From IMG/VR virus record IMGVR_UViG_3300030101_004083, positions 1-49,339 of that record: a stretch of 49,339 bases of DNA; one strand, given 5' to 3'. Positions within the stretch are counted from its first letter, which is position 1; each line of letters opens with the position of its first letter. Both the position numbers and the translations under genes were made by a program. Origin of the DNA: a virus. The notes under the pieces were generated by a model. It worked only from the letters and a program-made list of their open reading frames with translations. It was not told where the DNA came from and did no database searches. Shown here in pieces: positions 33,945 through 49,339 of the stretch.

Positions 33945-34364
33945 TTACTTATTGTCGAAAGATTCCAGCAACTTTTCAACAAACACTATCTTTTTGCCTA
34001 TTGTTGTGAACGATTCTATTGATTCCAGTATGCTTATAGCCCTATTTCTTGAGCTTGTTTCTTGTCCATTTTGAACCAAACTCTCCGTGTGACCATAGTC
34101 GCTAATATACGTTTCATCAGTAGCAAGTAAACTTTTGTGAGTTTCTAAGCCGTGTATGATGGTTGCGTGGTGTCTTCCAAAAATTCTGCCTATTTGACTC
34201 AGGCTTGCACCATACTTGTAATATAATATGTTGTACGCCATGCATCTAACCCTAACCAGCTCATGCTTTCTTGTCTTGCTTAATAGAGTGTCTACATCTA
34301 CATTGTTAATTTCAGCAATTTGGTTCTTTATTGCCTCGAATGTTCCCGTCCTGTTCGATTTCAT
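33945..34364 (-). CDS. Stand-alone DnaA domain IV-like DNA-binding protein (copy 1)
   Basis: 139 residues. Residues about 11-75 match the C-terminal DNA-binding domain of DnaA: TRKHELVRVRCMAYNILYY, then SLSQIGRIFGRHHATIIHGLE, where the GRxHATxxH run is the signature that contacts the DnaA box. There is no AAA+ ATPase domain, so it can bind but not open DNA by itself. It could recruit the host initiator, mask host origins or act as a regulator. The upstream gene overlaps it by 53 nt. A divergent second copy is at 42441. Confidence 0.7.
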   Translation of the reverse strand: MKSNRTGTFEAIKNQIAEINNVDVDTLLSKTRKHELVRVRCMAYNILYYKYGASLSQIGRIFGRHHATIIHGLETHKSLLATDETYISDYGHTESLVQNGQETSSRNRAISILESIESFTTIGKKIVFVEKLLESFDNK

Positions 34365-34665
34365 TTATAGTTTTGTTTAGGTTCAAGTAGTCTAAATATT
34401 CGTCTGATGTTATCTCATCCATGTTCATGATGAAGAACGGCTCGTCGCCGTCGTTAAAATACTCCATCTCCATGAATATATCGTTGTTATCTTCATCTTT
34501 AACGATGAACCCAACTTGCTCTGGGTGCTCTTCTGTTATATCTAACGAATTGAAGTTAGAAGCCACAAGTTTCATCGCTGAGTTCCTCACTTCCCTCGGC
34601 ATCTCTATCAGCTTGTCTATTATGAAGTCGTTCATCTGAACCATAGACCTCAGTCCTGCATCCAT
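34312..34665 (-). CDS. Hypothetical acidic early protein
   Basis: About 117 residues from the ATG at 34665. Other in-frame ATGs are at 34716, 34644 and 34635, and all overlap the VRR-NUC gene, so the start is uncertain. The core has DFIIDKLIEMPREVRNSAMKL followed by an Asp/Glu-rich C-terminal part with many Asn. It is sandwiched with overlaps between a nuclease gene (about 110 nt at the chosen start) and a DnaA-like gene (53 nt). An acidic protein co-expressed with nucleases might be a partner or inhibitor, but that is only inference. Confidence 0.5.
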   Translation of the reverse strand: MDAGLRSMVQMNDFIIDKLIEMPREVRNSAMKLVASNFNSLDITEEHPEQVGFIVKDEDNNDIFMEMEYFNDGDEPFFIMNMDEITSDEYLDYLNLNKTINEIEQDGNIRGNKEPNC

Positions 34666-34884: not shown

Positions 34885-35274
34885 CTAGAATTTAAGTTTT
34901 TTAATGTCCCAGTAATTACCCAATCCATTTAGGGCATCTTTCACATTTTTATGTGCATTATACCACTCACCGTCCATATAGTAGGACAATACGTCGCATA
35001 GGTGCAACTGAATTGGGTCAGCTCCTAATTGATTGTGCACGATGTGCATGGCTATGGCTTTGTCTGTGTGCCACGAATCGACAAGTCTTTCAAGTAGCAA
35101 CCTCTGACCTGTCGGAATGCCTGAGCTTTTGACATCCTTCAGCTCCATAAATATTATGGCCTCGTTGTTGAACTCTAGCACGGCATCAATGTCCGTTGGG
35201 TGTAGCTTGCCGTTTTGCAACCCAGTAAAATCAATAGGCTGCTTTATGTGGTCTACGTTCCTAATCAGCGTCAT
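34885..35274 (-). CDS. PD-(D/E)XK-like nuclease, small
   Basis: 129 residues. PTDIDAVLEFNNEAIIFMELK (about 27-47) has the shape of a PD-(D/E)xK core: Asp residues before a strand, then E-L-K in the next strand. A helix with QRLLLERLVD follows. This suggests a resolvase- or recombination-type nuclease. It lies 11 nt upstream (in transcription order) of the VRR-NUC gene and overlaps the small gene before it by 14 nt. The exact cleavage specificity cannot be read from sequence. Confidence 0.6.
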   Translation of the reverse strand: MTLIRNVDHIKQPIDFTGLQNGKLHPTDIDAVLEFNNEAIIFMELKDVKSSGIPTGQRLLLERLVDSWHTDKAIAMHIVHNQLGADPIQLHLCDVLSYYMDGEWYNAHKNVKDALNGLGNYWDIKKLKF

Positions 35275-35548
35275 CAGAAGAAGTCATCATCTCCAGAAGC
35301 TCTTCTATTTCCTCTCTACTGACTCCATTAAAGTCGTTAGCATATATTGGCGTGCCTTTACCTACGTAAGCACCCCACACGTTGTACTCAAGATACTCAA
35401 CAGCCTCCTCGTGAGACATGCCCTCCTCCATCAGTATATCCACCATTTTTATTTTTGAATATATAATCCTTGGCAGTTCAATCCATTCATCGCTAACACC
35501 TAGAATGGCCTTGTCAAATCCATCTGCAAATAATGTTTGTGGTTTCAT
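35261..35548 (-). CDS. Conserved small phage protein (replication arm)
   Basis: 95 residues with a widely seen phage pattern: DGFDKAILGVSDEW, then a YSKIKMVDILMEEGMSHEEAVEYLEYNVWGAYVGKGTP run (about 30-67). The second half resembles a small helical regulator. Homologous-looking proteins occur in many phages near helicases, function unknown. It overlaps the helicase stop by 4 nt and the downstream nuclease start by 14 nt, so these genes are translated as a chain. Confidence 0.6.
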   Translation of the reverse strand: MKPQTLFADGFDKAILGVSDEWIELPRIIYSKIKMVDILMEEGMSHEEAVEYLEYNVWGAYVGKGTPIYANDFNGVSREEIEELLEMMTSSDDAD

Positions 35549-42440: not shown

Positions 42441-42779
42441 CTATATAACGTTTGATTTAATATTAAATTGTTCAACATGTTCTTCGTATCTGTCAGCGAC
42501 ACCGTCCAAAGCATCAACTAATCTGTTGAAGTCATCATGATGTCTTCTGTCCATCTTGTTTACATAAAAATGTATCTGATGAGGACTAGGTCTTTTAAGA
42601 ATTTGTGCTATTCTTGTTTGGCTTAATTCAAATCTGTAGTAAAGCAGTTGAGAAACTGCACATCTAACGTGAACGTTATCGACACAATTTTCCTTACCTA
42701 ATACACTTTCAGAATCAAATCCTTGATTGTCTACCTCTTCCCAGATGGCATCCATAAAACTATTTAGTATTCTACTCAT
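42441..42779 (-). CDS. Stand-alone DnaA domain IV-like protein (copy 2, divergent)
   Basis: 112 residues. Residues about 28-80 follow the DnaA C-terminal plan: VHVRCAVSQLLYYRFELSQTRIAQILKRPSPHQIHFYVNKM. Arg and Tyr positions and the helix spacing match the copy at 33945, but the GRxHATxxH signature is replaced by KRPSPHQIHFY, so base contacts probably differ. There is no ATPase domain. Two different DnaA-type domain IV proteins in one phage suggest recognition of two site types or host origin control. Its stop overlaps the AACGTT element before the next gene. Confidence 0.55.
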   Translation of the reverse strand: MSRILNSFMDAIWEEVDNQGFDSESVLGKENCVDNVHVRCAVSQLLYYRFELSQTRIAQILKRPSPHQIHFYVNKMDRRHHDDFNRLVDALDGVADRYEEHVEQFNIKSNVI

Positions 42780-42964
42780 GATTCCTTATCTATGTTAACT
42801 ATTACCCACTCGTGTGAGCCTTCCTTCTTAAACTCTTCAATTTCCTTTTCATCCTCAAGGTAGAAGAAGATGTCATCATCATCACAGCCTACCTCTCCAA
42901 TCTTCATAACTACATCTTGAATATTTCCATTGTCAAGCCATTTTATTGTTGCATCATATCTCAT
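42776..42964 (-). CDS. Small acidic hypothetical protein
   Basis: 62 residues: DATIKWLDNGNIQDVVMKIG, then GCDDDDIFFYLEDEKEIEEF, then a short EWVIVNI end. A beta-alpha-beta-like small fold with a strongly acidic middle. Similar short proteins are frequent in early regions of Bacteroidota and marine phages. ATGA overlaps on both sides (with 42441 and 42961) show that it is part of a coupled operon. Function unknown. Confidence 0.55.
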   Translation of the reverse strand: MRYDATIKWLDNGNIQDVVMKIGEVGCDDDDIFFYLEDEKEIEEFKKEGSHEWVIVNIDKES

Positions 42965-43239
42965 GATTCCTTATTTAATTGTTTAATAAATTCTACTACT
43001 GCTTTGTGCGTTTCTTTTCTGTCGCAATCCAACAGAGCGTGTGTTATATCTCCCACTTCGTTTTCTTCAGCACCACTTTCATAACACTTGTCTACTACTG
43101 GCATCAACCAATCCCAAGAGGTGTGGTATTGTAGGTCTGATAAACTTCCATAGTATTCTTGTTTTTTATCTGAAATAAAACCCGACCTACTCAAAGGGCA
43201 TAACCCCATAAATTCTGCTATTAACTTATTCTCTTTCAT
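42961..43239 (-). CDS. Conserved small phage protein of unknown function
   Basis: 92 residues: KENKLIAEFMGLCPLSRSGF near the N terminus, SDLQYHTSWDWLMPVVDKCYESG in the middle, and a helical end. The KLIAEFMG start is a common signature of small proteins in Bacteroidota phages and mobile elements, with unknown role. It is preceded by a copy of the bipartite leader element (43262-43287), so it may have its own promoter. Confidence 0.6.
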   Translation of the reverse strand: MKENKLIAEFMGLCPLSRSGFISDKKQEYYGSLSDLQYHTSWDWLMPVVDKCYESGAEENEVGDITHALLDCDRKETHKAVVEFIKQLNKES

Positions 43240-43261
43240 AATTTCAATTGTTTAATATTAT

Positions 43262-43287
43262 AACGTTCAATCTTCAATTGTATTGCC
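43262..43287 (-). promoter_or_regulatory. Bipartite leader element (imperfect) before 43239
   Basis: On the - strand GGCAATACA, 11 nt, AACGTT, then TATAATATT and the leader of the next gene. The spacing equals that of the other copies, but the upstream half is less conserved and lies in the end of the tiny gene at 43267. Confidence 0.5.
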
Positions 43288-43353
43288 CACATGATAAAGT
43301 ATTCCGAAAATTATCGTTAGGCAAAAAACCACTAGTATAATTTTTGACATCAT
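43267..43353 (-). CDS. Tiny membrane peptide, 28 residues
   Basis: ATG at 43353 (a second at 43350) shares an ATGA with the stop of the upstream gene. The 28-residue product starts MMSKIILVVFCLTIIFGILY, one hydrophobic span, and ends HVGNTIED. The ATGA coupling is the main support; the length is at the limit of detection. A single-span phage peptide may act on the host membrane. Its final codon overlaps the AACGTT element of the next gene. Confidence 0.4.
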   Translation of the reverse strand: MMSKIILVVFCLTIIFGILYHVGNTIED

Positions 43354-43682
43354 AGTAATTCTTTTATGTAGTCATCAGACGCACCATCAAAGTCCCCATC
43401 CTTTGAAATATCTCCTAAGATGTTTTGCAGTAGGTCGCAATCCACACTGTCGCCTATATATCTGTCAAATAGCGTCTCTAACTCTTCGGGCAATCTGTAT
43501 TCAATGAAATCCTTAATGTCATCATCGTCAAGTTCTTCCTCCTCTTGACCTAGCATACGCCGTGCTTTGTTTTTTTCTTCATGCTCTTCAATGAAATCAT
43601 CTTTGAGTTCTTCAATGGCATCCCAAACTTTGTTTTCACATAGCATATCTCTAATCTCTTCTTTTGATAATTCGTAATTCAT
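43350..43682 (-). CDS. Acidic hypothetical protein
   Basis: 110 residues, extremely rich in Asp and Glu (EEEELDDDDIKDFIEYRLPEEL, about 46-67). Predicted helical. Acidic small proteins in early phage regions can mimic DNA, but that is only a possibility here. It is preceded by a perfect copy of the bipartite element (43705-43730) and its stop shares an ATGA with the 28-residue membrane peptide. Confidence 0.55.
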   Translation of the reverse strand: MNYELSKEEIRDMLCENKVWDAIEELKDDFIEEHEEKNKARRMLGQEEEELDDDDIKDFIEYRLPEELETLFDRYIGDSVDCDLLQNILGDISKDGDFDGASDDYIKELL

Positions 43683-43704
43683 AATTTCTGTTGTTTAATA
43701 GTTT

Positions 43705-43730
43705 AACGTTGTGTTTATTCTTTTATTGTG
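43705..43730 (-). promoter_or_regulatory. Bipartite leader element before 43682
   Basis: On the - strand CACAATAAA, 11 nt, AACGTT, then TAAACTATTAAAC and the leader to the ATG at 43682. It lies partly in the C-terminal codons of the gene at 43715. One of six near-perfect copies. Confidence 0.6.
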
Positions 43731-43930
43731 TCTTTTAGTAAAAAATATTTTATACCTCCAAAGTATATAGCCATCAATAGTATACCTATAAGATTGAAAA
43801 ATAGGCTCTTTAACTCTGCTGAATTTTCGCATGTATCTACCCTCAATCCAGTAAAAAGTATAAATGCAAAGCATATATTCTTCAAGGCTCCGAAAAGTTT
43901 AGCCGTTGCTTGTGTTATCTTGTTATTCAT
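43715..43930 (-). CDS. Small two-span membrane protein
   Basis: 71 residues with two hydrophobic segments (about 12-28 and 44-63) separated by a polar loop containing Cys34, and a charged end. Function not recognised. It is separated by only 2 nt from the upstream gene at 43933. Membrane proteins in this region might protect against other phages or modify the envelope, but there is no specific evidence. Confidence 0.5.
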   Translation of the reverse strand: MNNKITQATAKLFGALKNICFAFILFTGLRVDTCENSAELKSLFFNLIGILLMAIYFGGIKYFLLKDTIKE

Positions 43931-43932
43931 AT

Positions 43933-44217
43933 TTATATGTTTGTTGTATCAATATTCATTTCTTTCAATATGTCTATCACTTCCTTTGTCAATTCAAATA
44001 CTCCATCATATCCATACAATACGCCGTCCTGTATTTCAAGCATACCCGCCCCGTAGAATTCATCCCCTCCACTTTCGACATCGTACATTTCAAATCCTGC
44101 GCTTTCGTCATCTATCCATACGGATACGTTTAGCACTACTTCCTTTGGTTCTCCCATCATCCCAAAGCTATTTTCATAGTATGCGTGGGTCTTTACTTGT
44201 TTGTTAACCTTTCTCAT
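43933..44217 (-). CDS. Conserved small phage protein of unknown function
   Basis: 94 residues from the ATG at 44217; an earlier in-frame ATG at 44277 is inside the neighbour. Pattern: a polar N terminus, EVVLNVSVWID, then AGFEMYDVESGGDEFYGAGMLEI and a C-terminal YDGVFELTKEVIDIL. The GFEMYDxESGGxEFYAxGxLxxxxxxxYDGVFELP run occurs in many early phage proteins without known function. It starts 5 nt after the stop of the gene at 44223. Confidence 0.6.
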   Translation of the reverse strand: MRKVNKQVKTHAYYENSFGMMGEPKEVVLNVSVWIDDESAGFEMYDVESGGDEFYGAGMLEIQDGVLYGYDGVFELTKEVIDILKEMNIDTTNI

Positions 44218-44222
44218 GTGTT

Positions 44223-44516
44223 CTATTGTTTTATTTGTGTTAAGTTGCCGTTCCATTCTTCGCCGTTTAGATACCAAACAAAGTTCTTTTGATGGATATT
44301 TACATTAGGTAATCCGTTTAAGCGTTCCTTTGTGGTATTCGTTTTCCATCCAGCGTCCGTAATCATTAGCGTACCATCCCCATGCAATACCGCAATCGTG
44401 TTGCCGTGAAGTTTTAGATAGAAGCTATTATCAAAACTTGTGACCTCCATGTTCTGTCGCTTGAATGTTTGGCGGTTTAAAAATGCGTTTACTGAATCTA
44501 TTGTAATTTTTCTCAT
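44223..44516 (-). CDS. Conserved small phage protein of unknown function
   Basis: 97 residues: KRQNMEVTSFDNSFYLKLHGNTIAVL, then GTLMITDAGWKTNTTKERLNGLPN, then VWYLNGEEWNG. This LKLHGNxIA and TNTTKERLNGLPG pattern is widespread in marine and crAss-like phages and plasmids, with unknown role. An AACGTT at 44536 with TATAATATAAAA stands before the ATG; the upstream half of the bipartite element is not conserved here. Confidence 0.65.
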   Translation of the reverse strand: MRKITIDSVNAFLNRQTFKRQNMEVTSFDNSFYLKLHGNTIAVLHGDGTLMITDAGWKTNTTKERLNGLPNVNIHQKNFVWYLNGEEWNGNLTQIKQ

Positions 44517-44535
44517 GTGTTCTATTTTATATTAT

Positions 44536-44541
44536 AACGTT
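44536..44541 (-). promoter_or_regulatory. AACGTT plus TATA-like leader before 44516 (half-element)
   Basis: On the - strand AACGTT is followed by ATAATATAAAATAG and the ATG at 44516. The distal half at 11-nt spacing is degenerate because it lies in the end of the gene at 44548. Confidence 0.4.
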
Positions 44542-44547
44542 TAGTTT

Positions 44548-44865
44548 TTAATCATTAGTATTTAGCCAAAAGAATAATTTTTGAAGGGCGCTATCTTCTG
44601 ATAACATTACCGCCCCGTATGGTATACCATCATCATTAAGGGCTTCTGACATTTCAAAAGGACATCTGAACGTTAATACCTTATCTTCATTTGTATTTGA
44701 TAAGACAAAATCAGCTATTGAATATTTGCCTTTAATAAACTTTGCCCATTCATACTCACCTTCTGTTAATTGATATTCGAAGGGGCTACCGCTTGATGAA
44801 AATGAATCTTGTAATTCATATAAATCATCAGTTTTTAGGATTTCATTTGATGTGTATCTTTTCAT
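44548..44865 (-). CDS. Hypothetical acidic protein
   Basis: 105 residues beginning MKRYTSNEILKTDDLYELQDS. A mixed strand and helix pattern with FEYQLTEGEYEWAKFIKGKYS, followed by TFRCPFEMSEALNDDG, and a hydrophobic FFWLN near the end. No family recognised. Its promoter-like leader is the bipartite element at 44888. It is the last gene before a GC-rich hairpin at 44931 in the transcription direction from 44965. Confidence 0.5.
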   Translation of the reverse strand: MKRYTSNEILKTDDLYELQDSFSSSGSPFEYQLTEGEYEWAKFIKGKYSIADFVLSNTNEDKVLTFRCPFEMSEALNDDGIPYGAVMLSEDSALQKLFFWLNTND

Positions 44866-44887
44866 AATTGTTTGTTTATATAGTTAT

Positions 44888-44913
44888 AACGTCTGTATTT
44901 CTAGTTTATTGTG
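44888..44913 (-). promoter_or_regulatory. Bipartite leader element before 44865
   Basis: On the - strand CACAATAAA, 11 nt, GACGTT, then ATAACTATATAAAC and the leader to the ATG at 44865. It stands alone in a 99-nt intergenic gap, so it is not explained by coding. Confidence 0.65.
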
Positions 44914-44930
44914 TGCGTGAGTGTGAACAC

Positions 44931-44945
44931 CCCCCCGCAGGGGGG
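44931..44945. other. C/G hairpin between early genes
   Basis: CCCCCC (44931-44936) pairs with GGGGGG (44940-44945) around a GCA loop. Without a T-run on the - strand it is not a classic terminator. It could slow RNA polymerase or protect the upstream mRNA 3' end. Confidence 0.5.
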
Positions 44946-44964
44946 CGCACAAACAAACAAACAA

Positions 44965-45261
44965 TTATTGTGGGTAGTCTTCGAAGACCTCAAGCCCATA
45001 CCATAGGACTAGATGGTTCACTAAGGTTTCTGCGTTGTCAAAATCCGTTTGGATGTCTCCAAACATTTCAATTTCCTTTTTATTGCATAATCCTATGGCT
45101 TCGAATACTGAAAGGTCATGTTTTTTTAGCCATTCTTCACATTTGTAGTAACCTATTAGGTAGTAATCATCATTGAAAATGTCCCATCCGTCTAAGTTTT
45201 TGTCGTATTCTAACTGCTCTTGAATGTATTCAGTTAACTCTTTTCTGATTGAATCTTTCAT
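44965..45261 (-). CDS. Conserved small phage protein of unknown function
   Basis: 98 residues. Pattern: YIQEQLEYDKN near the N terminus, then FNDDYYLIGYYKCEEWLKKHDLSVFEAIGLC, and a helical acidic end. The DYYLIGYYxCExWLKKHxLSxFEAI core is found in many phage early regions, function unknown. It has its own copy of the bipartite leader (45281-45306), which is among the best conserved. Confidence 0.65.
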   Translation of the reverse strand: MKDSIRKELTEYIQEQLEYDKNLDGWDIFNDDYYLIGYYKCEEWLKKHDLSVFEAIGLCNKKEIEMFGDIQTDFDNAETLVNHLVLWYGLEVFEDYPQ

Positions 45262-45280
45262 GTTGTTTGTTTATTATATT

Positions 45281-45306
45281 AACGTTTAAGGTTTGGTTTT
45301 ATTGTG
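45281..45306 (-). promoter_or_regulatory. Bipartite leader element before 45261
   Basis: On the - strand CACAATAAA, 11 nt, AACGTT, then AATATAATAAACAAAC and the ATG at 45261. Only its upstream end overlaps the previous gene's stop codon. Confidence 0.65.
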
Positions 45307-45550
45307 CCAATTCTAAAATAAATTTTTCTAGGTCTAGGTCGTATATGTTTTCATTTTCAACTTCGTCAGCCATCCCGTATACTGACAGTGTTTCAAAGAA
45401 CTCTAAAATTTGCTCAGTCGTGTATTGTTGGGCGAATTCGTGGTAAAGCATTTCTACAATAGACTCCAATTCATAGCGACTGTATACCTCCAAGACGTGT
45501 ACATAGTGACCGCCGCGACTCTTTATAATATTTGATAGTATAGTATTCAT
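45299..45550 (-). CDS. Small hypothetical early protein
   Basis: 83 residues: SRGGHYVHVLEVYSRYELESIVEMLYHEFAQQY, then helices, and an ENIYDLDLEKFILEL end. Likely all-alpha. Function unknown, although proteins with this IYDLDLExF ending occur in related phages. Its stop codon is read from the CACAATAAA half of the next bipartite element, so the element doubles as coding DNA. Confidence 0.55.
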   Translation of the reverse strand: MNTILSNIIKSRGGHYVHVLEVYSRYELESIVEMLYHEFAQQYTTEQILEFFETLSVYGMADEVENENIYDLDLEKFILELAQ

Positions 45551-45569
45551 ATTGTTTGTTTTATATATT

Positions 45570-45595
45570 AACGTTTAATGTTTTACTTTATTGTG
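45570..45595 (-). promoter_or_regulatory. Bipartite leader element before 45550
   Basis: On the - strand CACAATAAA, 11 nt, AACGTT, then AATATATAAAACAAAC and the ATG at 45550. The upstream half encodes the final residues (HNKVKH) of the gene at 45575. Confidence 0.65.
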
Positions 45596-45796
45596 CGTGA
45601 TTGTGAATTCATCAAGAATTGTACGCGCAACCCAGAAGAGTTGACCTATCATCGTAATGATACCTATGTTAACCCATAGCTCGAACTTTTCATTTATGCC
45701 TTTTGCGTTGCCAATGTTTAGGAAAGCGACTAGGACAGCCAATGTAAATGATGCAACCATCAATTGATTTAGACTTGTTTTAATTGTGTTTATCAT
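45575..45796 (-). CDS. Small two-span membrane protein
   Basis: 73 residues with two hydrophobic segments (about 12-30 and 43-60) and a short polar loop between. The C terminus HNKVKH is encoded by the bipartite element of the next gene. Leader of this gene is CACAATAAAC plus a short A-rich run, without the AACGTT half. Function unknown; membrane placement suggests an envelope role. Confidence 0.55.
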   Translation of the reverse strand: MINTIKTSLNQLMVASFTLAVLVAFLNIGNAKGINEKFELWVNIGIITMIGQLFWVARTILDEFTITHNKVKH

Positions 45797-45801
45797 AATT
45801 T

Positions 45802-45999
45802 CTAGTTTATTGTGTTTATAAAATTTGGCTTTTGAGATAGGTCAACTTTTGAAAGTCTTAATTTGTCGTAATCTTTGAATATCTCAATTACTCTTTCATT
45901 GTTTACGTCAATGGTCTTGTCACTTGTATATAGAATTTCTTCCATGTAATCGGGCTGTCCAATTTCAACCCCCCAAAGTATGTACTCTATTTTTCTCAT
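45802..45999 (-). CDS. Conserved small phage protein of unknown function
   Basis: 65 residues beginning MRKIEYILWGVEIGQPDYMEE, followed by a polar middle with ERVIEIFKDYDKLRL and a KVDLSQKPNF end. The EYxLWGVxxGxxDxxxExxL pattern is widely seen in small phage proteins. No molecular role is known to me. It is preceded by a copy of the bipartite leader with a hairpin merged into its upstream half. Confidence 0.6.
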   Translation of the reverse strand: MRKIEYILWGVEIGQPDYMEEILYTSDKTIDVNNERVIEIFKDYDKLRLSKVDLSQKPNFINTIN

Positions 46000-46018
46000 G
46001 TTGTTTGTTTTATATTAT

Positions 46019-46044
46019 AACGTTGTGTTGTTTGGTTTATTGCC
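46019..46044 (-). promoter_or_regulatory. Bipartite leader element before 45999
   Basis: On the - strand GGCAATAAA, 11 nt, AACGTT, then ATAATATAAAACAAAC and the ATG at 45999. The first two bases belong to the 3' arm of the hairpin at 46042. Confidence 0.6.
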
Positions 46045-46057
46045 CCCCGAAGGGGGC
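46042..46057. other. Strong hairpin with UUCG loop on - strand, T-run on + strand
   Basis: GCCCCC (46042-46047) pairs with GGGGGC (46052-46057). On the - strand the loop is a C(UUCG)G tetraloop; on the + strand five T follow (46058-46062), so it would act as a terminator for + transcripts. On the - strand it may stall polymerase just before the next leader. Confidence 0.6.
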
Positions 46058-46064
46058 TTTTTGA

Positions 46065-46307
46065 TTAGTCGATGTATTTGTCCACGAATTTTACGTATGC
46101 TGAATTAGTTAAGCCTTTCTTTGCAATTTTCCACCTTAGTATGTCAACGGCATCTTTCATGTCTTTTCTTTCATCCTCTTTTATGCAAGTATCATCTTCA
46201 TAGGTAACCAATAGCGCGTACTCAATCATTGACATTTCCTCAGAGGTCAAGCGTGTTGTTATTGTCTTATATTCGCCATTGTGCCTTAGGTATGTAAATT
46301 TCTTCAT
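46065..46307 (-). CDS. Small hypothetical early protein
   Basis: 80 residues: MKKFTYLRHNGEYKTITTRLTSEEMSMIEYALLVTYEDD, then a helical half with KDMKDAVDILRWKIAKKG. The charged pattern suggests a small regulatory or nucleic-acid-associated protein. Its leader is a textbook copy of the bipartite element. Its stop is followed by a hairpin with UUCG loop. Function not recognised. Confidence 0.55.
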   Translation of the reverse strand: MKKFTYLRHNGEYKTITTRLTSEEMSMIEYALLVTYEDDTCIKEDERKDMKDAVDILRWKIAKKGLTNSAYVKFVDKYID

Positions 46308-46327
46308 GTTTGTTTGTTTTATATATT

Positions 46328-46353
46328 AACGTTGTGTTGTTTGGTTTATTGTG
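46328..46353 (-). promoter_or_regulatory. Bipartite leader element before 46307
   Basis: On the - strand CACAATAAA, 11 nt, AACGTT, then AATATATAAAACAAAC and the ATG at 46307. It lies wholly in a 47-nt intergenic gap, giving the clearest copy of the family. Confidence 0.7.
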
Positions 46354-46354
46354 T

Positions 46355-46681
46355 TTACCCGTTTTTAATTGCTCTTTTGAATGCTGACTTGATATGTCGT
46401 AGGTTGTAGCTTAGACCTTGTTTTTGGTCTTCGACCATCCAAAACTCTTGTTCAGGGTTCAGGTCAAAGAATTCGACAGGTTCAATTGCCTGGTAGCGTC
46501 CACTCCCTCCGCATATTGTAACTTCTAATCCGTCCACTTCTATTGGCTTTGATAGCTCCATATAGAATTCATGAGTGCTACCCATGTAACTGAAAGCCAT
46601 TAAGCCCTTTTCGTTTATTACTTTCAACATCTCATTAATCTCATCTATTGAGTTGATGTATCTTTTCGGTAGTCTTTTCAT
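46355..46681 (-). CDS. Hypothetical early protein, first gene of the small-gene cluster
   Basis: 108 residues: KRYINSIDEINEMLKVINEKGLMAFSYMGSTHEFYMELSKPIEVDG near the N terminus and YNLRHIKSAFKRAIKNG at the end. Mixed alpha and beta. It is the first gene in the transcription direction from the repeat-rich region at 46682-47249, so it may be expressed earliest. Its leader is AAACAAACAGAAA before the ATG but lacks the AACGTT half. Function unknown. Confidence 0.5.
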   Translation of the reverse strand: MKRLPKRYINSIDEINEMLKVINEKGLMAFSYMGSTHEFYMELSKPIEVDGLEVTICGGSGRYQAIEPVEFFDLNPEQEFWMVEDQKQGLSYNLRHIKSAFKRAIKNG

Positions 46682-46749
46682 TTTCTGTTTGTTTGTTAGA
46701 TAATCGGCTTTGTGCCCTTGTCACTATAAAGACGCCCTAGGTATATGTT

Positions 46750-46763
46750 ATATTGTGCAATAT
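46750..46763. promoter_or_regulatory. Palindrome ATATTG-TG-CAATAT, possible operator
   Basis: A perfect 6-bp inverted repeat with a 2-nt centre, 69 nt upstream of the first early gene. Typical size for a dimeric repressor or activator site. Confidence 0.4.
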
Positions 46764-46977
46764 TGTATTTTTTTTTAAATTAATTTACAAGTCGTTGACA
46801 ATCAATGAGTTACAGGGGAAAAAAAGTTTAAATTATTCGTGCGCACGGGCGTGTGGGGTTATACAAAAGGCGAAATTGCGCGTAAGCGCAAAACTCAAAG
46901 GGGCGTGTATGACTGGTCATCGAAGGGAAAAAGTCGCTTAAATCGAAGCTATGGACGTAGCGAAGAAATAGCGGGAA

Positions 46978-47072
46978 CGTAAAACGTCCGACTTTATTGT
47001 GTAGCCTTAAAATTTATTTTGCAAAGCGTAAAACGTCGGGGCGCCCTTGTTTAGAAAAGTGCGTGAAACGTC
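46978..47072. repeat. Direct repeats CGTRAAACGTC (three copies)
   Basis: CGTAAAACGTC at 46978-46988 and 47027-47037, CGTGAAACGTC at 47062-47072. Start-to-start distances are 49 and 35 nt. A weaker TGTAAAACGTA lies near 47189-47199. On the - strand each reads GACGTTTYACG and so includes the AACGT-type half of the bipartite element. Confidence 0.6.
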
Positions 47073-47092
47073 AAGGCTCTCACATTATTGTG
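47067..47092 (-). promoter_or_regulatory. Bipartite element in non-coding region
   Basis: On the - strand CACAATAAT, 11 nt, GACGTT. Same spacing as the gene-leader copies, but about 390 nt from the first - strand gene. It shares its GACGTT with the third direct repeat. Confidence 0.5.
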
Positions 47093-47237
47093 TATGCATA
47101 GTAAAAAAGCAAAAAAAATGACTAGGCACATGATGACAGGCACCCCCCCCTATGGTTGCGTAGGTCATTTTTATTTTTGCAGTACTGCTGTAAAACGTAT
47201 ATACAACCCGAAACCTACAAGTGTCTCGCAAAATTTG

Positions 47238-47245
47238 TACCTTTA
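47238..47245 (+). promoter_or_regulatory. Candidate promoter element (TACCTTTA)
   Basis: TACCTTTA then CCC, 4 nt before the ATG at 47250, resembles the TATCTTTA elements at 10763 and 12095. It would give an almost leaderless transcript on the + strand. Confidence 0.3.
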
Positions 47246-47249
47246 CCCT

Positions 47250-47429
47250 ATGACAGACTTAAGAATGACCCCACAGGGTAGAATGAGCAGAGCTATACCT
47301 GGACAAACCGAGATTCAGCGATTGACAGAACTCAAGAAAATGAAAAAGCGTGAAGATAAAATCTCCATGATGACCGATGCGATGAGTCGCAAGGAAATGA
47401 TGGATGAGCTTAAATTACGTTACAAGTAG
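47250..47429 (+). CDS. Small basic protein, lone + strand gene in the right arm
   Basis: 59 residues from the ATG at 47250; an upstream in-frame ATG at 47088 would add residues from the non-coding region. Reads MTDLRMTPQGRMSRAIPGQT and then a Lys/Glu/Met-rich helical half (RLTELKKMKKREDKISMMTDAM) ending RYK. It is the only + strand gene between 32831 and the window end and overlaps the 3' end of the convergent gene by 20 nt. A regulator or structural peptide is possible, but no known family is recognised. Confidence 0.5.
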   Translation: MTDLRMTPQGRMSRAIPGQTEIQRLTELKKMKKREDKISMMTDAMSRKEMMDELKLRYK

Positions 47430-48060
47430 TATAGAAGTAGTTATCACTATCTTCGGTTATCCACTTTTCGTGCCCCTCAGCATTATATGTCTGGGTGCAT
47501 ACCTTGTAGTCAGGCTTCTTTGGAAAATCTTTCGTGGTGAATGATGGTTCAACCCATCGCACCCTATTGTTAGGTTGCAGAGCGAAGCACCCGTTATCTA
47601 GTATTATTATATGATGCGACTTATGTTCGTGTGGAGTCTCACTTAGTGTGAGGTCAGCATTCTCATTTGTCTCACATGCCCATTGTATAGTACATAGGTA
47701 TTCACCATCGTACCACTTACGGTCCTTCATAAACACCGATGCTGTCGCATCTGCTATATATGCCAACTCCACAACGGAGAACGTCTTACTGAAGCTATTC
47801 CATAGACACAGCTGGTGGAACGGAATATGTGGTGCATCATGAGGATTAGCATCCTTATCTATCAGTGCAGAGCACGGAAGTTTATCTCTCATTACGCCAT
47901 TCTCAAGAAGAACCTGGAACAGGGGTACTTGACCTGGGAGACATCTAACGGATACAATCCGCCCTAGTAAGAACTCACCGTGGTGAGATTTCATATCGTA
48001 TAAGTATTCAGCACGTACCCACACATCTACAGGTGGGAAGCTAGATTCTATGTAAGCCAT
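47410..48060 (-). CDS. Conserved marine-phage protein of unknown function
   Basis: 216 residues. The N-terminal part reads SSFPPVDVWVRAEYLYDMKSHHGEF and then VSVRCLPGQVPLFQVLLENGVMRDKLPCSALI. The centre has PFHQLCLWNSFSKTFSVVELAYI and YLCTIQWACE. The end has CFALQPNNRVRWVEPSF. This set recurs in marine phage genomes without a known role. Multiple Cys and His are present, but no clear metal site. It overlaps the downstream convergent gene and the upstream 60-residue gene by about 20 nt each. Confidence 0.65.
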   Translation of the reverse strand: MAYIESSFPPVDVWVRAEYLYDMKSHHGEFLLGRIVSVRCLPGQVPLFQVLLENGVMRDKLPCSALIDKDANPHDAPHIPFHQLCLWNSFSKTFSVVELAYIADATASVFMKDRKWYDGEYLCTIQWACETNENADLTLSETPHEHKSHHIIILDNGCFALQPNNRVRWVEPSFTTKDFPKKPDYKVCTQTYNAEGHEKWITEDSDNYFYTTCNVI

Positions 48061-49265: not shown

Positions 49266-49339
49266 TACTCCCATCAGGACTCGAACCTGAAACCTACTGC
49301 TTAGAAGGCAGTTGCTCTATCCAGTTGAGCTATAGGAGC
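49266..49339 (-). tRNA. tRNA-Arg (anticodon TCT)
   Basis: A complete 74-nt cloverleaf on the - strand: 7-bp acceptor (GCTCCTA with TGGGAGT), 4-bp D-stem (GCTC/GAGC), anticodon stem ACTGC/GCAGT with loop CTTCTAA (anticodon TCT), variable AGGTT, and T-arm TCAGG/CCTGA with loop TTCGAGT. The discriminator is A, and CCA is not encoded. The 5' base is the last base of the window. It reads AGA codons, used often in these AT-rich genes. Confidence 0.93.

Follow-up and report, generated by a model that had tools for sequence, protein, structure and literature searches.

A one-per-genome DNA control site with a fixed core and phage-specific repeats in phages of flavobacteria

The non-coding gap at positions 46682..47249 of IMG/VR virus record IMGVR_UViG_3300030101_004083 (49,339 bp; this whole stretch is referred to as the window) is, as judged from sequence comparison, a real DNA control site that occurs once per genome and is common to many phages of flavobacteria. 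It probably marks the point of genome cleavage for packaging or the start point of replication. As a unique genome-handling site, it would most likely serve for terminase recognition and cutting of concatemeric DNA, a reading to which we assign a probability of roughly 0.4. No description of the site was found in a search of the open literature.

The start of replication and packaging in podoviruses of flavobacteria is largely unmapped. The site provides one concrete address per genome, including the cultured phages elemo, phi38:1, Calle and phi18:3, and both questions therefore become testable with existing isolates and reads.

Layout of the non-coding region

The gap separates a minus-strand gene on the left (46355-46681) from a plus-strand gene on the right (47250-47429). 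Throughout the window, late genes are carried on the plus strand and early genes on the minus strand. A TTG-started frame opens within the gap at 47088, and protein alignment to relatives was obtained only from the ATG at 47250 on. The features of the region are as follows.

46682..47249, no strand: whole non-coding region between strand-opposed genes, without a credible ORF
46742..46801, no strand: A+T-rich stretch by composition, 18% G+C, kept in close relatives
46876..46891, no strand: perfect hairpin TTGCGC-GTAA-GCGCAA, GNRA-type
46976..47001, minus strand: bipartite element copy (AACGT..TATTGTG) overlapping repeat 1, with early-promoter spacing, conserved in L084 and L085
46978..46988, plus strand: direct repeat 1, CGTAAAACGTC, an exact CGTRAAACGTC copy, conserved in G001-G004
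47027..47037, plus strand: direct repeat 2, CGTAAAACGTC, an exact CGTRAAACGTC copy
47062..47072, plus strand: direct repeat 3, CGTGAAACGTC, an exact CGTRAAACGTC copy
47067..47092, minus strand: second bipartite element copy, overlapping repeat 3, with early-promoter spacing
47103..47255, plus strand: conserved core, the sole profile match in the window (E=6e-9)
47103..47122, plus strand: A-block of the core, from the alignment
47143..47150, plus strand: C-tract of the core, eight C, from the alignment; a G-tract or missing in some relatives
47203..47217, plus strand: ACAACCCGAAACCTA element
47238..47245, plus strand: Bacteroidetes-type -7 promoter element TACCTTTA; TAnnTTTG stands here in most relatives
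47250..47429, plus strand: small gene of 59 aa, whose relatives share GLTVKNGRLINNRPDG-TGI in the alignment

Much of what the sequence-only reading had described in the gap was confirmed by counting. The region is non-coding as proposed, and the three CGTRAAACGTC repeats are its only exact copies in the whole window (0.01 expected), all on the plus strand and all inside the gap, with irregular spacings of 49 and 35 nt. Clustered copies were also observed at the same location in the close relatives G001-G004, where the perfect form ACGTRAAACGTC occurs exactly once per genome and always within the gap. The palindromes reported earlier also stood up, with eight perfect 8-base palindromes present against 3.1 expected (P=0.012). 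The left 340 bp of the gap showed 84% identity in G003 and G004. Part of the gap had been described as richer in G and C, and values of 0.42-0.48 were indeed measured locally against 0.18 in the neighbouring A+T-rich stretch, although the effect is modest. The GNRA hairpin is present, but its folding is unremarkable (z of -1.5) and one pair is broken in the close relative L084; it is probably incidental.

The bipartite element had been noted in the gap as well, and the two copies listed above were found. In the window as a whole, AACGT-N(14-18)-TATTG occurs 11 times against 0.8 expected. Seven other copies (43262 to 46328) are located 20-23 nt upstream of minus-strand early-gene start codons. 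Within 42961-46360, each of seven minus-strand early genes has its own CACAATAA-N14-ACGTT-AATATATAA element, and this pattern suggests that these genes are individually promoted and nearly leaderless.

Relatives of the 59-aa gene were found at 49 viral loci. In the window, its Bacteroidetes-type promoter element ends in A, not G, and lies directly ahead of the ATG at 47250. At its 3' end, the gene shares 20 bp with the 3' end of a ferredoxin-like gene (phrog_3704) on the opposite strand (window 47410-48060). The ferredoxin-like protein is 94-98% conserved in close relatives, while the adjoining non-coding region diverges.

The conserved core and its repeat array in relatives

A DNA profile (nhmmer) was derived from 36 distant loci; the window, G001-G004, MW202828 and the elemo phages did not contribute to it. 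Most genomes tested were matched, each at a single above-background site. E-values were 3e-10 for MW202828, 6e-6 for elemoA, 5e-8 for G003, 2e-9 for G004 and 6e-4 for G001, reaching 4e-37 in others; no match was obtained in G002. About 106 distinct copies of the core were collected. The motif comparison in related phages that had been proposed as a check showed that several groups of phages have the core in common.

The left part of the core was also detected in the Cellulophaga phages phi38:1 (4e-6) and Calle (3e-6), and weakly in phi18:3 (0.0025) and phi19:3 (0.01-0.09). In all four phages, the match falls in a junction of low coding content, flanked by genes on opposite strands. The core lies around 30045 in elemoA, at 34307-34378 in phi38:1 and at 35204-35292 in Calle_2. 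The right half, from ACCC to the promoter, was not detected in the junctions of phi38:1, Calle, phi18:3 and elemo, and the profile found no site in Panino, Gundel and Leef.

The core has a fixed order and spacing, with an A-block, a C- or G-tract, TTTCC and TATA-ACCC, preceded by short repeats. Upstream of most relatives of the small gene, same-strand repeats are followed by AAAAAGCCAAAAAATC, the C/G-tract, TTTCC, TATA-ACCC-AAACACTA and TATCTAATAA, and then by a TAnnTTTG promoter of the Bacteroidetes type. The idea that the C-tract is essential for cleavage was weakened, since the tract is missing in L299, L029, L407 and L374.

The repeat word itself differs in nearly every phage, with GGACGG, GGGAACCAA, GGCAGG, GCTGTAG and GGTGGT found among the relatives. 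By this comparison, the CGTRAAACGTC repeats are the window phage's version of an array that differs in almost every relative. The repeat tract ranks among the most repetitive stretches in most genomes tested, and one contig carries two repeat-number variants of it, one at either end. Host recombination (Chi) sites were considered because some arrays are G-rich, like known Chi words, and this candidate was dropped because the word differs in nearly every phage.

The frozen core and the changing array suggest a lock-and-key specificity. A tentative extension, which we regard as rather doubtful, is that a family of cis-acting sites spans Elemovirus, Pervagoviridae, Pachyviridae and other flavobacterial phages, each with a fixed core of about 150 bp and a fast-changing repeat array. 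In this extension, the repeats would specify which phage's DNA is cut or copied. A conserved enzyme would have a variable partner that reads this code, and co-infecting relatives would thereby be kept separate.

Further elements were observed to the left of the site. The palindrome TGTCTTYRAAGACA, possibly a phage operator, is dispersed at 11-14 copies per genome in G010, G011, G015, G018 and G024 (L180, L182, L181, L208 and L223), with one location just left of the repeat tract; it is absent from the window and from elemo. Another non-coding stretch (L082:6300-6950, L019:1400-1800, L056:1300-1750) shares the words CGCGCTCGTTTTTC and TACGCCGCGC and gave no match in Rfam.

With respect to genome context, the window terminase is 71% identical to that of MW202828, a podovirus with a circular genome of 60,850 bp, and 45% identical to those of the Flavobacterium elemo phages. 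G001 and G002 are near relatives, colinear with the window. Approximately 6.9 kb of the genome, from the window's end at 49339 round to its start, is absent from the window, as shown by G003, which bridges the two ends (G003:3449-10302). The matching stretch of L082 contains GroES- and GroEL-like genes. The first gene of the window is matched at both ends of the G001 contig (114-1335 and 59484-59998), with identities of 94% and 90%, and this contig may represent two diverged copies or a strain mixture.

Candidate functions of the site

Under the packaging reading, the terminase would recognise and cut concatemeric phage DNA at the gap, and the genome end may include a short terminal repeat. 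Recognition and cleavage would take place at the fixed core (A-block, C/G tract, TTTCC, TATA|ACCC), and the phage-specific direct repeats, CGTRAAACGTC three times here, would be bound by a partner protein that varies between phages. The same region would also contain the promoter of the small rightward gene, together with elements that resemble the leftward early promoters.

This reading is slightly favoured over a replication origin because the terminase is common to the site-bearing phages and the replication genes are not, because three contig ends coincide, and because a relative has predicted terminal repeats. Among site-bearing isolates, the terminase is 38-71% identical to that of the window, and the site, one per genome, is conserved along with it; Panino and Gundel, however, have related terminases and lack the site. 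With the window primase-helicase as query, tblastn found nothing in phi38:1, Calle and phi18:3, and in elemo the match was confined to the first 320 residues of the query; the DnaA_C protein was not detectable in the site-bearing elemo phages. A cis-site conserved in this way calls for an equally conserved reader, which should be sought in the packaging module or in a host factor, and we infer that it is the packaging machinery that recognises the core.

Three contigs from different metagenomes break at the same aligned bases, with L044 and G048 stopping at TATAT| and L226 starting at |GCCC. By analogy with these contig ends of other phages, a cut or genome end would be predicted at about 47204-47206 in the window, within the ACAACCCGAAACCTA element. 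Two more contigs start within about 8 nt of the aligned break, and contig starts generally pile up in the gap. L229 was rejected as an exact contig end, as it starts about 7 nt inside. G048 stops 116 nt past its repeat variant and not at the 127 nt that a simple k-mer overlap would give and that its other end shows, which counts for a terminus. As a physical terminal repeat G048 was rejected, the end on the overlap side being an assembly feature. The presence of the G/C tract in either orientation and the retention of the site in MW202828, where the small gene does not lie beside it, were also counted for a terminus. It follows from MW202828 that the site does not serve solely to express the small gene.

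Several observations weigh against a terminus. The database entries for elemo, Calle, phi38:1 and phi18:3 are circular assemblies or begin at differing positions, published PhageTerm analysis gave no ends for Calle, and almost all of the 68 elemo records have their ends at other places. The repeats of the region explain many contig ends, assembly artefacts are possible, and the last bases of L044 differ from its relative. The terminase genes lie about 10 kb away, and the related terminase of Panino occurs without the core.

A replication origin, somewhat less probable, is the main rival candidate. In this case, an initiator particular to each phage would bind the repeats as iterons, melting would occur at the A/T-rich stretch and the A-block, and the helicase-primase would load at the core. 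Same-strand, phage-specific repeats do adjoin an A/T-rich conserved core once per genome, with three clustered direct repeats beside the 18% G+C stretch, as in an iteron origin, and both a D5-like primase-helicase and a DnaA_C protein are among the products of the phage. The spacing of the repeats is irregular, however, and the site is retained where the replication genes are unrelated and also in elemo, which lacks detectable DnaA_C; another initiator may act in such phages.

The sequence-only reading had suggested an origin or master control region, with GC skew as a check and two DnaA-domain proteins as possible ligands. The global GC-skew minimum was located at most 600 bp from the site in most of 15 genomes; the window and G001-G002 have it 2.2-2.4 kb rightward of the site, at the main strand switch. 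Skew tracks the gene strand: minus-strand third-position skew is nearly equal in both arms (0.002 in one and -0.022 in the other), so that gene direction explains it. Third-position skew revealed no composition switch beyond gene direction, and GC skew was rejected as proof of an origin. The two-protein proposal held for the protein at 33945 (PF08299, 52 bits). The protein at 42441 gave no PF08299 match and resembles the 33945 family only weakly (34% over 56 aa, E=0.004). As had been remarked, no classic DnaA box (TTWTNCACA) is found in the gap, and such boxes are not enriched across the 15 genomes (1 seen, 1.3 expected); an oriC-like origin based on them was discarded. What stands of the earlier proposal is a unique cis-acting region in several phage groups, with an origin as one possible role.

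It is rather unlikely that the repeats and core are operators and promoters controlling a switch between the leftward early and the rightward genes. The gap does part strand-opposed genes, it holds two copies of the early-promoter element, and in most relatives the core is followed by a TAnnTTTG promoter. A role in transcription alone is nevertheless less likely because the left core is kept in MW202828, elemo, phi38:1 and phi18:3, where the promoter-gene pair is missing. In addition, the core reaches about 140 bp upstream of the -7 element at fixed spacing, which is far for a single promoter, and the bipartite early promoter is limited to the window's close kin.

A structured non-coding RNA is highly improbable and was rejected: hairpins and palindromes are individually visible in the gap, but an Rfam search gave no match, the mean folding z from TTTCC to ACCC over 36 loci was +0.07, RNAalifold found no consensus structure on either strand, window segments folded no better than shuffles, and a hairpin between TTTCC and ACCC that looked covarying on visual inspection failed the shuffle test.

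Comparison with known systems

For Tenacibaculum phage Gundel (Pachyviridae, MT732474), terminal repeats of 322 bp were predicted by PhageTerm (PMC8776804). Its record places them in an extended non-coding region that is flanked by divergent genes, as in the window, and the terminases are related (32%). At 54 bp from their end, the Gundel repeats include a C6 run. In contrast, the core profile did not match Gundel, so that its C-run was rejected as the same core; the gene order also differs, and the ends are software predictions.

The early/late junctions of phi38:1, Calle, phi18:3 and elemo have a core of the same profile in a non-coding junction, with repeats on the left. They differ from the window in their repeat words and in the undetected right half of the core.

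In the iteron origins of lambda and P4, direct repeats lie next to A/T-rich DNA. The window site is similar in its phage-specific direct repeats near A/T-rich DNA, and its phage encodes a P4-like helicase-primase. It is unlike these origins in the irregular spacing and in a core conserved where replication proteins are not. The T7 concatemer junction is flanked by arrays of short repeats, and a short same-strand repeat array likewise stands beside the putative genome end in the window. The site resembles a phage terminus region or an iteron origin and is filed as neither.
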